From an uncultured Legionellales bacterium (GTDB lineage: Bacteria > Pseudomonadota > Gammaproteobacteria > Eutrophobiales > Eutrophobiaceae): a stretch of DNA of 42,052 nt. The stretch covers positions 1 to 42,052 of the forward strand of contig CAJWRJ010000012.1 in NCBI GenBank assembly GCA_913046215.1, in the 5' to 3' direction. Both the position numbers and the translations under genes were made by a program. Under the pieces are notes generated by a model. It was given only the letters and a program-made list of their open reading frames with translations. It had not been told where the DNA came from and searched no databases. This document shows, piece by piece, positions 5,470 to 36,915 of the stretch; within the stretch, counting starts at the first letter, position 1; each line of letters begins with the position of its first letter.

Positions 5470-6372
5470 TTAACCACGAGGGTGGTGCTTTGAATGTATG
5501 TCTTTTAATCGCTCTCGTGCAACATGCGTATATATTTGTGTAGTTGAAATATCACTATGGCCTAGCAACATTTGTACAACCCTAAGATCGGCTCCATGAT
5601 TAATTAAGTGTGTAGCAAATGCATGTCTAAGCATATGCGGGGATATGCTTTTCTTAATCCCAGCAACAATTGCATGTCTTTTAACTATATGCCAGAAGGT
5701 TTGGCGTGTCATTGATTTTCCTCTTCTACTGGGAAATAGAGTATCTGTTGAATTGTTCTCACCCAAAATTTCATTTCTTCCATGTGCAAGATATTTTTCT
5801 AACCACTCAGTAGATATTTCTCCAAGCGGAACTAAGCGTTCTTTGTTGCCCTTACCCATCACTCTAACTACACCTTGACGTAAATTTATCTGGTGTAGTG
5901 TTAATGTTATAAGTTCGGAAACCCGAAGACCTGTGCCATAAATAATTTCTAGCATGGTTTTATCTCTAAGACCTAATGGTTGATTTGTATTTGGAGCATC
6001 AAGAAGTGACTCAACTTCATTTTCTGTTAATGATTTAGGTAAACTTCTACCTAATCTAGGAGCTTCGACATTCTTAATGGGATTTTGTTTTACCTTATCT
6101 TCCTTCGATAAATACTCGTATAAACGACGCAAGCTTGATAAATTTCTTGCAACTGTTCGAGTTGATTTATTTTCTGTCGATGCTAAATAAGCTAATATAT
6201 TTTGCGGTCCTGCTTTTGTAATATTTATACCTTGATTTTGCAACCATCTTGCATATTTAGATATATCGCTACGGTATGCAAATAGAGTGTTTTTACTTAA
6301 TCCTCTCTCCATCCAGAGAGAATCTAAAAATAAATCAATTATTTCTTTTGATTCATTTGTAAGATCTTCCAT
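5470..6372 (-). CDS. xerD: Site-specific tyrosine recombinase XerD
   Basis: Works with XerC at the dif site to resolve chromosome dimers at division under FtsK control. The 300-residue length is typical. The N-terminal SAM-like core-binding domain (about 10-95) is followed by a catalytic domain with the complete set Arg150, Lys174, His246, Arg249, His272 and Tyr281 (in LRHAFATHL and LLGHSDISTTQIYTH). It is called XerD rather than XerC or an integrase because it is immediately followed by dsbC, as in E. coli, and no phage or integron features are nearby. The ATG start gives the standard N-terminus. Confidence 0.92.
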   Translation of the reverse strand: MEDLTNESKEIIDLFLDSLWMERGLSKNTLFAYRSDISKYARWLQNQGINITKAGPQNILAYLASTENKSTRTVARNLSSLRRLYEYLSKEDKVKQNPIKNVEAPRLGRSLPKSLTENEVESLLDAPNTNQPLGLRDKTMLEIIYGTGLRVSELITLTLHQINLRQGVVRVMGKGNKERLVPLGEISTEWLEKYLAHGRNEILGENNSTDTLFPSRRGKSMTRQTFWHIVKRHAIVAGIKKSISPHMLRHAFATHLINHGADLRVVQMLLGHSDISTTQIYTHVARERLKDIHSKHHPRG

Positions 6373-30911: not shown

Positions 30912-32486
30912 ATGAAAAATAATATCTTCGATAACTATAACCCTCAAAAAACACTTTACAAAGCCTTGCTTGATGCAAGCAATGAACACGGGAAAAACTA
31001 CGAAGTAATTGAGGACATCCAAAGAAAACCACTTAAGTATAGAGATATTATTCTACAAAGCATTGTACTAGGTAATTATATAAAAAGATTCACTACCGAA
31101 TCTGAACATATTGGAATTATGCTGCCTAATGTTACCGCCCTACCAATACTTTTTTTCGCTTTACAATTTACTGGTCGTGTTCCTGCAATGTTAAATTTCT
31201 CCTCGGGCGCCTATGCAATAAATAGGTCGTGCAAAACTGCAAAAATAAAAACTATCTATACATCAAGACTTTTTATAGACAAAGCTAAGCTAGAGTCAGT
31301 TATAAAAGAATTACAAAAAAACTATTCAATATACTATCTAGAAGATATAAAAAAGAAAATAAAAATAAGCACGAAATTATTTTCATTAATCGCACAGTTT
31401 TTTATTTCAAAATACTATGATAGACAACACCCTAACAAAGACCCAGAAAAAACGGCTGTTATACTCTTTACCTCAGGTTCGGAAGGTGATCCAAAAGGTG
31501 TCGCATTATCCCATAGAAATCTGCTTTCTAACTATGCGCAAGTTAAATACCATATAGAATTCAGTGCATCTGATACAATGTTTTGCTGTCTCCCTTTGTA
31601 TCATTCGTTTGGACTTAATGCAGGCTTCCTGATGCCATTATTAGGAGGTTCAAAAATATTCCTATACCCAACACCTCTTGATTATCGCCTTATTCCAGAA
31701 TTTATTTCAAAACTTAAAGCAACTATTCTTTTCGGTACTAATACATTTTTTAAGGGTTATGCTAATTATGCCAAGCCTGATGATTTCAAAACATTAAAAT
31801 ATGTAGTTGCAGGTGCCGAAAAATTACATGGCGATACGATTAAATTATGGAGAGATAAATTTGGTCTAGATATTTTACAGGGTTATGGAGTCACTGAAAC
31901 AAGTCCTGTGATATCAGTTAATGATTTAAAACAAAATAAAATAGGTACCGTGGGAAGTATTATGATAAATATAAATCATTATTTAGAGCCAGTAGAGGGT
32001 ATAGATAATGGTGGACGCCTCGTTGTAAAAGGACCGAATATTATGCTTGGATACCTGCTTTATGATAATCCTGGAATTCTCCAACCTCCGTCAACTGCTA
32101 AAGGTGCTGGATGGTATGATACTGGTGATATTGCTAATGTTGATGATGAAGGATTTGTGACAATATTAGGACGCGCAAAAAGATTTGCTAAAATTGGAGG
32201 TGAAATGGTTTCCCTAACAGCAGTTGAGGAATTAGCAGCACTCACATGGCCGCAAGAAAAACATGCATGTGTAGCAATAATCGATGAAAATAAAAGAGAG
32301 AGAATAATACTTGTCACAGAAAATAAAGAGGCAAAACTCAAAGAATTACAAAAAATTGCTAAAGAAAATCATATTAGTAAATTAAACATACCTAAAAAAA
32401 TTGAAACTACTATCGATATTCCTATTCTTGCTACTGGGAAAATAGATTATATTAATCTTACAAAATTAGTTGCATTAAAAAATTAA
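30912..32486 (+). CDS. Aas-type acyl-[ACP]/acyl-CoA synthetase, stand-alone
   Basis: A 524-residue AMP-forming ligase. ATP-binding TSGSEGDPKG lies at 187-196; then CCLPLYHSFGLNAGFLMPLLGG, YVVAGAEKLHGDTIKLW, GYGVTETSPVIS, WYDTGD and the C-terminal ATGKIDY, with the expected catalytic lysine. These motifs match the C-terminal ligase half of E. coli Aas (acyl-ACP synthetase/2-acyl-GPE acyltransferase) better than FadD. The acyltransferase half is missing, so it may recycle free fatty acids or lysophospholipid with a partner encoded elsewhere. It is followed by apt with stop and ATG touching. Confidence 0.8.
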   Translation: MKNNIFDNYNPQKTLYKALLDASNEHGKNYEVIEDIQRKPLKYRDIILQSIVLGNYIKRFTTESEHIGIMLPNVTALPILFFALQFTGRVPAMLNFSSGAYAINRSCKTAKIKTIYTSRLFIDKAKLESVIKELQKNYSIYYLEDIKKKIKISTKLFSLIAQFFISKYYDRQHPNKDPEKTAVILFTSGSEGDPKGVALSHRNLLSNYAQVKYHIEFSASDTMFCCLPLYHSFGLNAGFLMPLLGGSKIFLYPTPLDYRLIPEFISKLKATILFGTNTFFKGYANYAKPDDFKTLKYVVAGAEKLHGDTIKLWRDKFGLDILQGYGVTETSPVISVNDLKQNKIGTVGSIMININHYLEPVEGIDNGGRLVVKGPNIMLGYLLYDNPGILQPPSTAKGAGWYDTGDIANVDDEGFVTILGRAKRFAKIGGEMVSLTAVEELAALTWPQEKHACVAIIDENKRERIILVTENKEAKLKELQKIAKENHISKLNIPKKIETTIDIPILATGKIDYINLTKLVALKN

Positions 32487-33012: not shown

Positions 33013-33768
33013 CTAGACTAACCCGCCATTTATATTAATTGATTCTCCCACTAAATAGGATGATTCATCAGAAGATAAGAAAACGACTGCCTCAGCAATA
33101 TCATCTGGTGTGCCAAAACGTCCAAGTGGTATTTCTTTAAGACGCTCCTGATAAAAATCACCATCTATATTTTTTTCAGCAAAAGCTGTGATAATCCAAC
33201 CGGGAGAAACCATATTGACACGAATTATTGGGGCAACACTTTTTGCAAAAGAACGTGTAAACCCAAGAACTGCCGACTTACTGGCAGCAAAAATTTGTGG
33301 ATTCAAACCTTTAAAACCATGTATAGATAAATCCCAGCCCATGTTTACAATCACACCATGCCCTTGCTTTTTCATGATCTCGCTGACAGACCAGCAAGCG
33401 TTAATTGTTCCTTTTAAATCAGTCTCAATTAATCGCTCTAATTTATCAGCAGTATTAGCTGAAGCAGCATCGCCAGTGAGAATATCTGCGCCTGCATTAT
33501 TTACCCATATGTCAATACGACCGAATTCATCGAGGGTGCTTTCAATTAAATGATTGAGAGATTTTTTATCGCTTACATCTGCTTGGATTAATAGAATTTT
33601 ACTACTACATGATTCATTATTTTTTAACAGCATTTCAGCATTATTTTTAGACTTTAGATAATTAACGACAATATCTGCTCCTTCAGAAATAAATAGATTA
33701 GCAATACCTGCCCCTATACCACTGCTTGAGCCGGTAATGACAGCAACTTTATTTTTAAGACGTTCCAT
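33013..33768 (-). CDS. Short-chain dehydrogenase/reductase-like protein lacking the catalytic Tyr
   Basis: A classical-SDR-length protein (251 residues) with the cofactor loop TGSSSGIG (12-19), NNAG (90-93), the SPG after strand 6 and GRFGTPDDIAEAVVFL near the end. The usual YxxxK is FxxxK (Phe160-AAS-Lys164, codon TTT), and the region that normally carries the catalytic Ser reads NMGWDLS. Two of the three catalytic residues are therefore changed or displaced, so it may be a non-canonical or inactive SDR, perhaps a binding protein. It is divergent from the glycosyltransferase operon across 59 bases. Confidence 0.8.
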   Translation of the reverse strand: MERLKNKVAVITGSSSGIGAGIANLFISEGADIVVNYLKSKNNAEMLLKNNESCSSKILLIQADVSDKKSLNHLIESTLDEFGRIDIWVNNAGADILTGDAASANTADKLERLIETDLKGTINACWSVSEIMKKQGHGVIVNMGWDLSIHGFKGLNPQIFAASKSAVLGFTRSFAKSVAPIIRVNMVSPGWIITAFAEKNIDGDFYQERLKEIPLGRFGTPDDIAEAVVFLSSDESSYLVGESININGGLV

Positions 33769-33827: not shown

Positions 33828-34649
33828 ATGCCAGAAATTGCCGTTATTATCCCCACTTACAATCGAATCTCATTCCTAGAACGAGCAATTAATTCAGTGC
33901 TCGATCAATCTTGTTCAGTGAATCAAATAATCGTTATAGATGACGGTTCAACAGACGATACAAAGAAAGTAATTAAAAAAAAATATCCACAAGTTACATA
34001 TATTCATCAAAAAAATCAGGGTGTCAGCGTTGCTAGGAACAGAGGAATAATCGAGACTAATTGTGAGTGGATATGTTTTTTAGACTCAGATGACACATGG
34101 CATAAAAATAAAATTCAAAAACAGAAACAAAAAATTAAAGAAAATTCTGAAATGTTATTTTGTCATACAAATGAAATCTGGCATCAGCATGGAAAAATTC
34201 TAAATCAGCAAAAAAAACATAAAAAATATGGCGGTTATATTTTTGAGCAATGCCTACCATTTTGTATTATTTCACCATCTTCAGTAATAATTCATAAAAA
34301 AATATTTAATGAGATAGGATTATTTGATGAAGGACTTTTGGCGTGTGAGGATTATGATATGTGGCTACGTATATGCAGTAGGTATCCCGTATTATTTATC
34401 AATGAAGCATTAACAAATAAATATGGTGGTCATAGCGATCAGCTATCAAAGAAATATTGGGGTATTGATAGATTTAGAATAATTGCATTAGAAAAAATTA
34501 TTCAATCTAAGAATCTTGATCCAAAAAAAACAAAAATAGCAAAAACCGAGCTACTTAAGAAAGTAAATATTTTTTTAAAGGGGTCTGAAAAATATAAGAG
34601 AAATAAATATCATGACATGTGTATCGCAATAAGAGAAAAATATGCTTAA
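33828..34649 (+). CDS. Family 2 glycosyltransferase
   Basis: A 273-residue GT-A fold enzyme: VIIPTYNR (6-13), IDDGSTDD (37-44), NQGVSVARNRGI, the metal-binding LDSDD (85-89) and EDYDMWLRI (174-182). There are no membrane helices. The acceptor cannot be told. First gene of a tight four-gene operon: its end overlaps the next gene by 8 bases. The LPS core genes are 30 kb away, so a link to LPS is not evident. Confidence 0.85.
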   Translation: MPEIAVIIPTYNRISFLERAINSVLDQSCSVNQIIVIDDGSTDDTKKVIKKKYPQVTYIHQKNQGVSVARNRGIIETNCEWICFLDSDDTWHKNKIQKQKQKIKENSEMLFCHTNEIWHQHGKILNQQKKHKKYGGYIFEQCLPFCIISPSSVIIHKKIFNEIGLFDEGLLACEDYDMWLRICSRYPVLFINEALTNKYGGHSDQLSKKYWGIDRFRIIALEKIIQSKNLDPKKTKIAKTELLKKVNIFLKGSEKYKRNKYHDMCIAIREKYA

Positions 34650-35100
34650 AAAACTAAAAAATTATCTAAAAATATCAGATAAATTACATACAGCAGCTCA
34701 GCCTGACTATGATCAATTCAAACTGATAAAAGACAGTGGTGTTGAAATCATTATCAACCTAGCAGAAATTGATTCGCCAGGGGCAATTGAAAATGAATCA
34801 CAACTGGTAGTTGAAAATATGATGGATTATATAAATATTCCAGTTGATTTTAAGCAGCCGACATCTGCTGAACTAGAATCATTTTTCAATATTATGATTC
34901 ACTCAACTAGTAAAACAGTCTTAGTTCACTGCGCCTATAATTGGCGTGTTTCATGCTTTATTTACTTATATCGCATAATCAAGCTTGGAATAAGTGAAGA
35001 AGAAGCAAAAAGTGATATGCTTAAGATATGGGAGCCAAATAAAACGTGGCAATCTTTCATTGAGACAAATTTATCTAAGCAGAATCATAAAATAAAATGA
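34642..35100 (+). CDS. DUF442-type (dual-specificity-phosphatase-like) protein
   Basis: A 152-residue protein of the phosphatase-like family often annotated DUF442 or beta-lactamase hydrolase-like. It opens with YLKISDKLHTAAQPDYDQF and GVEIIINLAE, the latter matching the family's strand before the loop, and carries the signature VHCAYNWRVS: Cys97 and Arg102 form the CX4R variant of the phosphatase P-loop. Substrate unknown. It overlaps the upstream gene by 8 bases and the downstream gene by 4 (ATGA), so it is firmly part of the operon. Confidence 0.75.
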   Translation: MLKKLKNYLKISDKLHTAAQPDYDQFKLIKDSGVEIIINLAEIDSPGAIENESQLVVENMMDYINIPVDFKQPTSAELESFFNIMIHSTSKTVLVHCAYNWRVSCFIYLYRIIKLGISEEEAKSDMLKIWEPNKTWQSFIETNLSKQNHKIK

Positions 35101-35915
35101 CAGTACATTTCTTTTCAGCTCTTTTTTGTGAAGCAAAACCTATTATTAAGCACTATGACCTTAGTAAACTAGAAAATTTAAATACATTTTCAATATACAG
35201 CTCTAATGAAGGAGATATTACGCTCACTATCACAGGGATTGGTAAAAATAATGCTATTAAAGCAATAAAATATCATCACGACTCTATGCATACACATAAA
35301 AGTGATATTTGGCTTAATATAGGGATTGCAGGACATAAAAATATAAGTGTTGGTGATATAAGACTAATTAATAAAATAACCGATGATGAAGATAAAAAAA
35401 GCTGGTACCCACAAATAATTTTTAAGTCAGAATGTCCCTCTATCGACTTAGTCTCACTAAATGCTCCATCAACCAATTATAAAGCGTGTTTATACGATAT
35501 GGAGGCGTCTGGCTTCTACCAAACTGCTATTCAATATGGAACTATAGAATTGGTACAATCTCTCAAAATTATTTCAGATAATAGCAGAACATCTATATCA
35601 AAAATTAATGCAGAAAATGTTGAGTCATTAATTAAATTAAATATAGATGCTATTGAAAAAGTATTGTCTGAACTGAAAATACTGGCAAAACAAATAACAT
35701 CTGAAGAGAAGTTACCTAACTATTATGAACTTTTTATAGAAAAATGGCACTTCACACAATCAGAAAAATATAGGCTAAAAAGAATGCTGGCTAAGATAAA
35801 TATTAGATATTCTAATGAAAATATTTTTGAATCCACCAATCACCTTGGAACGGGGAAATTAGTTTTAAAAGAATTAGAAAATAAATTAACTAATATCAAT
35901 TTCTCTTTAAATTAA
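35097..35915 (+). CDS. Nucleoside-phosphorylase/MTAN-like protein with C-terminal extension
   Basis: Residues 1-190 resemble the PNP/UDP family (5'-methylthioadenosine nucleosidase-like): ITGIGKNNAIKAI (45-57), LNIGIAGHKNISVGDI (73-87), YDMEASGFYQTA (133-144) and KIISDN, with Ser160-Asp161 at the place of the catalytic Asp. About 80 further residues (191-272), helical and charged, are not part of the usual fold. It is coupled to the phosphatase gene and ends one base before the radical SAM gene. A plausible link is base or nucleoside handling alongside DNA repair, but this is inference. Confidence 0.65.
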   Translation: MTVHFFSALFCEAKPIIKHYDLSKLENLNTFSIYSSNEGDITLTITGIGKNNAIKAIKYHHDSMHTHKSDIWLNIGIAGHKNISVGDIRLINKITDDEDKKSWYPQIIFKSECPSIDLVSLNAPSTNYKACLYDMEASGFYQTAIQYGTIELVQSLKIISDNSRTSISKINAENVESLIKLNIDAIEKVLSELKILAKQITSEEKLPNYYELFIEKWHFTQSEKYRLKRMLAKINIRYSNENIFESTNHLGTGKLVLKELENKLTNINFSLN

Positions 35916-35916
35916 T

Positions 35917-36915
35917 ATGATAGATACCATATACATTGAAAATGAGATTGCGACACATCCGCGTACTAAAAAAATTCTCAAAAGATTCTCAAAAGCTACG
36001 CAAATTAAATGTGATCGTTATTCTGAAATTTTTAATCGCAAGTCTCAAAACTTTAGATTACAAAAGAATAATCCAGCATTAATTTTAGCTAAAAAACATA
36101 AGGGTATGGTGCTGCCAATACCTAAGCAATTTGGTATTGGGGCAAAACATAATTATTACTTTTCTCATATGTTGAATTGCATTTATGACTGCCGATACTG
36201 TTTTCTACAAGGGATGTTTCAATCCGCAAATTACGTTTTATTTGTTAATTACGAAGATTTTATCAATGATATTGAATCTCTAGTGAAAACACATAGCTCA
36301 GATGAGGTTCATTTTTTCTCGGGATATGATTGCGATAGTTTAGCACTAGATCCTGTAACTCATTTTATATCTGATTTTCTTCCTTTCTTTGAAGAAAATG
36401 AAAATGCTTTAATTGAATTAAGAACAAAAAGTACGCAAATAGCTTCACTTTTGAAGAGGCCCGTTATCAATAATTGTGTTGTTGCTTTTAGCTTTACACC
36501 AGAAAAAATAGCAAGTCTTCTTGAACATAAAACACCAGCTATATCTAAAAGACTAGAAGCGGCGATAAAGTTACAAAAAGCGGGGTGGAATATTGGGTTA
36601 CGTTTCGACCCTCTCATCTATACTAAAGATTTTACTGATCAATATAAAACTTTATTTAATAGAGTTTTTTCAGAAATAAATATAGATTTACTTCACTCTG
36701 TGAGTCTTGGAAATTTTCGACTTCCAAAAGATTATTTTCGGAAATTAGAAAAACTCTACCCAGAAGAATTATTGCTCGCATCGCCACTGGTAGAGGACGA
36801 TGGAATTATTTCGTACCCAGGGGATTTACGAGATGAGATGGTCAAATTTTGCGAGAATAAAATTAAAAAATACACGCCAAAAGAAAAATTCTTTCCGTGT
36901 TATGAAGTAGCTTGA
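35917..36915 (+). CDS. Spore-photoproduct-lyase-like radical SAM protein
   Basis: A 332-residue radical SAM protein. The [4Fe-4S] motif is CX3CX2C at Cys88, Cys92 and Cys95 (NCIYDCRYCFLQG), the spacing used by spore photoproduct lyase, followed by NYVLFVNYEDF and FSGYDCDSLALDPVTHF, which align with SPL. Of the SPL hydrogen-transfer residues, the first Tyr is kept (Tyr94), the second is Phe96, and Cys139 is close to the position of the catalytic Cys. SPL repairs the thymine dimer 5-thyminyl-5,6-dihydrothymine in spores; this organism has no sporulation genes here, so a different lesion is likely. Confidence 0.8.
   Translation: MIDTIYIENEIATHPRTKKILKRFSKATQIKCDRYSEIFNRKSQNFRLQKNNPALILAKKHKGMVLPIPKQFGIGAKHNYYFSHMLNCIYDCRYCFLQGMFQSANYVLFVNYEDFINDIESLVKTHSSDEVHFFSGYDCDSLALDPVTHFISDFLPFFEENENALIELRTKSTQIASLLKRPVINNCVVAFSFTPEKIASLLEHKTPAISKRLEAAIKLQKAGWNIGLRFDPLIYTKDFTDQYKTLFNRVFSEINIDLLHSVSLGNFRLPKDYFRKLEKLYPEELLLASPLVEDDGIISYPGDLRDEMVKFCENKIKKYTPKEKFFPCYEVA

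Follow-up and report, generated by a model that had tools for sequence, protein, structure and literature searches.

The locus examined here raises the question of what a relative of spore photoproduct lyase (SPL), an enzyme known for repairing DNA and for recycling its SAM, is doing in a gammaproteobacterium where its gene is packed together with those for a nucleosidase, a phosphatase, and a glycosyltransferase. The window, i.e., the whole 42,052-nucleotide stretch of DNA that was analysed, belongs to a gammaproteobacterial genome of 1.4 Mb whose closest named relatives are 'Legionellales'/'Thiotrichaceae' MAGs of marine origin. Four open reading frames, all on the plus strand, encode a GT2 glycosyltransferase (GT; 33828-34649; PF00535, 116 bits), a DSP/DUF442-type phosphatase (34642-35100), an MTAN-fold purine nucleosidase (35097-35915), and an SPL-fold radical SAM enzyme (35917-36915). 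The first three genes share 8 and then 4 bases with their successors or predecessors, and a gap of 1 base separates the last two, confirming the four-gene operon described in the sequence-only reading in its positions, spacing, and families. The phosphatase carries an HCAYNWRVS motif and scores 27.4 bits against PF22741 (cut-off 27) and 37.4 bits against the Blh N-domain, and the Cys-phosphatase loop HCAxNxRV is present in all 13 of its 13 relatives. A FabG-like SDR gene on the minus strand (33013-33768) is divergent from the first cassette gene, and a convergent thiC lies downstream of the operon. We also noticed that the Aas-type acyl-ACP synthetase at 30912-32486 lacks the acyltransferase portion at its N-terminus and has 524 residues, compared to 724-791 in wider relatives.

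The SPL-like protein scored 84.6 bits against PF20903 (cut-off 27) and fell below the cut-off of NCBIfam TIGR04070 (105.9 compared to 400 bits). Its structure model (pLDDT 84) matched SPL along the whole length with a TM score of 0.83, and other radical SAM folds followed at below 0.5. In common with SplB (TIGR04070, PF20903; PDB 4FHC/4FHD), it has the whole-chain fold (TM about 0.8), the CxxxCxxC cluster motif (C88/C92/C95), Tyr96 (Gt), and Lys174 (Gt), which is conserved in the SPL-like proteins. In contrast with SplB, from which it differs at all but 17% of positions over the structural alignment, it occurs without spores, has a nucleosidase partner, falls in a clade of its own, and has other residues at the positions of Cys141 and Tyr99 (B. 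subtilis numbering). Among 127 gammaproteobacterial SPL-like sequences, the cluster cysteines are kept in every one, the Tyr99 position is always Phe (F96 in the window), and the Cys141 position is Tyr in 126 (Y137 in the window) and His in 1. Another Cys stands two residues after the Cys141 position in 122 of the 127, and since C. acetobutylicum SPL uses a relocated Cys (PMC5368176), loss of Cys141 alone is not fatal to SPL activity. When aligned with authentic B. velezensis SplB, the SPL-family proteins of Granulicella and Kovacikia, like SplB itself, retain Cys141, Tyr99, and a C-terminal insertion of roughly 10 residues around KRRYKWGRYG. This insertion, which may have a role in lesion binding, is missing from all module proteins. 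A branch with support of 100/98 in a maximum-likelihood tree divided the module proteins, together with a third family (described at the end), from SplB and the SPL-family proteins, although long branches are involved.

The nucleosidase lies just below the PNP_UDP_1 cut-off (PF01048, 24.2 compared to 25.1 bits) and far below that of TIGR03664 (18.9 compared to 124.7 bits), and in profile comparison it comes closest to the futalosine hydrolase/MTAN models, again under the family cut-offs. The structure model (pLDDT 92) matched MTA/SAH nucleosidases with E about 1e-12 and TM scores of 0.5-0.67. E12, E136, and D161 are invariant in 93 of 93 sequences and M135 is found in 91, and by motif E12, M135-E136, and D161 are the predicted equivalents of E. 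coli MTAN E12, M173-E174, and D197. The protein thus resembles MTA/SAH nucleosidase (MtnN/Pfs) and futalosine hydrolase (MqnB) in its predicted fold and catalytic residues, but differs from both in scoring under the cut-offs, in its co-occurrence or fusion with an SPL-like protein, and in an extra tail. The tail, previously remarked upon as unusual, is a real C-terminal helical element of about residues 206-272 (35712-35915, plus strand). The nucleosidase family is represented elsewhere in this genome by an S-methylthioinosine phosphorylase and by an HpnG-like protein. Canonical MTAN was found in 0 of 40 sampled SPL-positive genomes and in 2 of 40 SPL-negative ones, and being rare in both groups, it gives no reason to regard the nucleosidase as a stand-in for a missing MTAN.

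The SPL-like gene was present, mostly as a full orthologue, in 28 of 58 genomes related to the window host. We compared 21 loci, window included, of which 19 came from the GTDB family of the window and 2 from families elsewhere in the class. The nucleosidase adjoins the SPL-like gene in all 21, the GT is present in 19, the divergent FabG-like SDR is kept as a neighbour in 16, and the phosphatase is found in 13. Because gene order is kept in relatives, the arrangement in the window is not due to chance, and the sequence-only reading, which a neighbourhood not conserved in relatives would have refuted, withstands this check. We also examined 40 loci from further families of the class. Here the nucleosidase adjoins the SPL-like gene in 34 (one of these being a weak 27-bit match) and the GT is present in 25. 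In 31 of these loci the SPL-like gene is followed by another SDR ('SDR2', not of the same family as the FabG-like protein), which in most cases overlaps it or lies within a few bases of it. These counts indicate that the common cassette is GT - nucleosidase - SPL - SDR2, with the GT as the first cassette gene in most Gammaproteobacteria. The genus of the window has the phosphatase and lacks SDR2, which was for that reason invisible to the sequence-only reading, and the phosphatase is a local, lineage-specific addition. The unit as originally drawn therefore stands in its nucleosidase-SPL core, but it includes a phosphatase restricted to one lineage and a GT that is often absent, and it omits SDR2. 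In two distant loci, a TsaA/TrmO-like gene lies directly 3' of SDR2 (L111, 7964-8680; L244, 5313-6035).

The co-occurrence of the two core genes was then counted in a sample of 369 gammaproteobacterial genomes, with the SPL-like protein of the window type (hereafter short SPL) scored at E below 1e-100. Short SPL was found in 49 genomes and the tailed nucleosidase in 47, with 46 genomes holding both, 3 only the SPL, 1 only the nucleosidase, and 319 neither; the corresponding Fisher values of about 1e-53 ignore shared ancestry and are descriptive only. Nucleosidase and SPL are thus together in 46 of the 50 carrier genomes. Two of the four exceptions to pairing are incomplete or fragmented genomes (G095, G304), and one has a weak, short neighbour (G087, L190). 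In methanotrophs, SPL-SDR2 is at one site and the nucleosidase at another, and both were present in 10 of 10 genomes searched, with the GT in 4 of these 10. The constant core is the nucleosidase and the SPL-like protein, usually with a downstream SDR and often with a GT.

A second, matched form of the pair was also observed. A tail-less nucleosidase occurs in 11 of the 369 genomes, mostly in the order GT - nucleosidase - SDR2, and a long SPL-like protein (about 410-480 residues) occurs in exactly those eleven genomes, usually elsewhere in the genome (11 with both, 0 and 0 with one alone, 358 with neither). Accordingly, the tail is present alongside short SPL and absent alongside long SPL. This sharp split comes from a single sample of 369 genomes, and the exclusion is not absolute, since G010 and G027, from the window's own family, hold both SPL types. 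The N-terminal domain of long SPL follows the pattern 'FTxQELRQLxEIAIDLxMW ... GKxxKK' and the nucleosidase tail 'WHFTxxExxQLxxLLxxW ... GKxVLxxL'. Their alignment with hhalign covered 64 columns at a weak E of 0.0038 with a score of 19.8, and 0 of 500 column shuffles did as well (best shuffle, 18.8). Homology between the tail and the long-SPL N-terminal domain is therefore probable, not proven, and suggests that the tail is a docking domain that moved between partners.

The module was also found incidentally in three records from outside Proteobacteria or from gut bacteria (NZ_CP084075.1, MT835514.1, and MT835770.1). In Fusobacterium vincentii (L279, 5098-6969), a single 623-residue frame comprises the nucleosidase, a linker, and the SPL-like domain, and is followed by an SDR; this fusion is from one genome only. 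In a human faecal contig (L278), the nucleosidase, SPL, and SDR genes overlap. In a gut contig (L277), the SDR comes first, followed by a 160-residue nucleosidase remnant (5505-5984) and then the SPL-like gene. The remnant is without its N-terminal half and keeps the tail-like part, which suggests that the tail may matter to the SPL-like protein apart from catalysis. The residue at Tyr99 is kept in the Fusobacterium and gut SPL-like proteins. Their linker aligned with the proteobacterial tail at a score of 13.0 and E 0.075, where 200 shuffles reached at most 11.9, a result only suggestive of homology. The records behind L277, L278, and L279 (MT835514.1, MT835770.1, and NZ_CP084075.1, respectively) are labelled phage or plasmid and look like bacterial chromosomal DNA under wrong labels. 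Viral carriage of the module was rejected, with no case found in IMG/VR. One phylum sample yielded no further match beyond the class, a weak result given that the listed genomes all belong to the same class.

From this linkage and co-occurrence, the one fusion, the predicted folds, and the residues, we infer an SPL-fold enzyme that consumes SAM together with a tethered, dedicated nucleosidase that cleaves the adenosyl product, in a reaction other than repair, a proposal to which we give about an even chance. The SPL-fold enzyme would generate a 5'-deoxyadenosyl radical and, its Cys/Tyr relay lost, would use up SAM at each turnover rather than regenerate it. The adenosyl-containing product would be passed within a putative physical complex to the MTAN-type nucleosidase, which would hydrolyse off the adenine and expose an aldose to be reduced or oxidised by the SDR, with the GT, and in the window the phosphatase, acting downstream. 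In B. subtilis SPL, C141A or Y99F each brings the ratio of repaired product to 5'-deoxyadenosine to 1, with loss of SAM recycling (PMC3742179), and because both of these sites are changed in the SPL-like family, SAM is presumably consumed, leaving an adenosyl product to be handled. As the target of the nucleosidase, the by-product 5'-deoxyadenosine is a tentative candidate, well short of an even chance, and slightly more likely than an adenosylated substrate, which we regard as unlikely. Radical SAM enzymes are inhibited by 5'-deoxyadenosine, which MTAN can cleave (PMC8102628), and according to the same paper biotin synthase is reported to need a nucleosidase in vivo (its ref. 9), with the Pfs nucleosidase relieving the inhibition. 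Unlike the SPL-like protein and its nucleosidase, however, biotin synthase and Pfs are not a dedicated, linked, or fused pair, and since 38 of the 40 SPL-negative genomes cope without MTAN, the need to clear a by-product is not in itself enough to account for a dedicated nucleosidase. The lack of canonical MTAN in all 40 sampled SPL-positive genomes counts in favour of the proposal. Counting against it are the Tyr99 residue kept in the Fusobacterium and gut proteins, the shortened nucleosidase of L277, and the third relay-less SPL family, whose genomes hold no such nucleosidase.

The SDR and GT are better accommodated if the substrate is adenosylated, and this reading can be extended to a full pathway in which a substrate receives the 5'-deoxyadenosyl radical from the SPL-like enzyme, the nucleosidase depurinates the adduct, the SDR reduces the sugar, and the GT glycosylates it, as modelled on HpnH/HpnG hopanoid side-chain assembly or the MqnE/MTAN futalosine route. 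This would make all of the genes steps of one pathway and explain the strict pairing, and the resemblance of the nucleosidase profile to futalosine hydrolase/MTAN models is consistent with it. However, adduct formation lacks precedent in the SPL family, being known for none of its members, and the GT is dispensable, as in the methanotrophs. The module shares with HpnH/HpnG(/HpnI) the logic of a radical SAM enzyme, a PNP-superfamily nucleosidase, and a GT2, but its radical SAM family is different, and HpnH does not track SPL (6 of 40 SPL-positive compared to 8 of 40 SPL-negative genomes), for which reason a role in the hopanoid pathway was rejected. The window genome moreover has its own HpnG-like nucleosidase beside squalene-hopene cyclase (L268, G000:C2), with HpnH elsewhere, and production of extended hopanoids is probably encoded in these 1.4 Mb. 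On balance we consider radical adenosylation unlikely, and similarly unlikely its broader form, in which the nucleosidase/SPL-like/SDR module of Gammaproteobacteria, Fusobacteria, and gut bacteria works as an enzyme complex that produces a new kind of metabolite by adenosylation, depurination, reduction, and glycosylation. Less likely still is salvage or modification of a nucleoside or tRNA base, comparable to the queuine salvage enzymes QueK/QueL, with the SPL-like enzyme and the nucleosidase acting on the same modified compound; the SPL fold binds pyrimidine nucleosides and the partner is a nucleosidase, but there was no match to any such NCBIfam or Pfam model.

A role in repairing UV or oxidative lesions of DNA independently of light, in favour of which stand the SPL fold over the whole chain and the conserved radical SAM triad and Lys174 (Gt), appears improbable. 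The relay residues are replaced in the gammaproteobacterial relatives, the SplB insertion is missing, and the module proteins form a separate clade. LexA-like sites upstream of the module were at chance level (11 of 134, compared to 11.1 expected), and SOS regulation was accordingly rejected. The genes also persist in deep-sea Bathymodiolus symbionts and other dark-living organisms, namely gut and oral bacteria, and repair offers no obvious part for the GT and nucleosidase. Because the relay is changed, the insertion missing, LexA boxes not enriched, and the genes kept in dark habitats, the repair role raised by the sequence-only reading is unsupported, and gammaproteobacterial genes labelled 'spore photoproduct lyase' should not be taken for UV repair genes. 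In contrast, its idea of an undescribed pathway around the SPL-like protein and nucleosidase is strongly indicated by the conserved neighbourhood and co-occurrence, and no description of the pair was found in the open-licence literature. A linked, once fused, SPL-like/nucleosidase pair, whose reaction is probably not repair and is so far undescribed, thus occurs in many Gammaproteobacteria and in some bacteria of the gut and mouth. If the proposal of SAM consumption with a dedicated nucleosidase is true, a widespread SPL-fold branch without the recycling relay, paired with an obligate and sometimes fused nucleosidase, would show a radical SAM scaffold changing function, and the two proteins are a ready-made enzyme pair for direct tests of how adenosyl products are handled.

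The third family in the tree is likewise SPL-like and relay-less, with 373-396 residues and a 'FGTWELGDSLAL' motif (L250, L251, and L252, from G111, G238, and G340, respectively), and none of these three genomes holds such a nucleosidase. At L250, the third-family gene lies directly 5' of an aldo-keto reductase gene.
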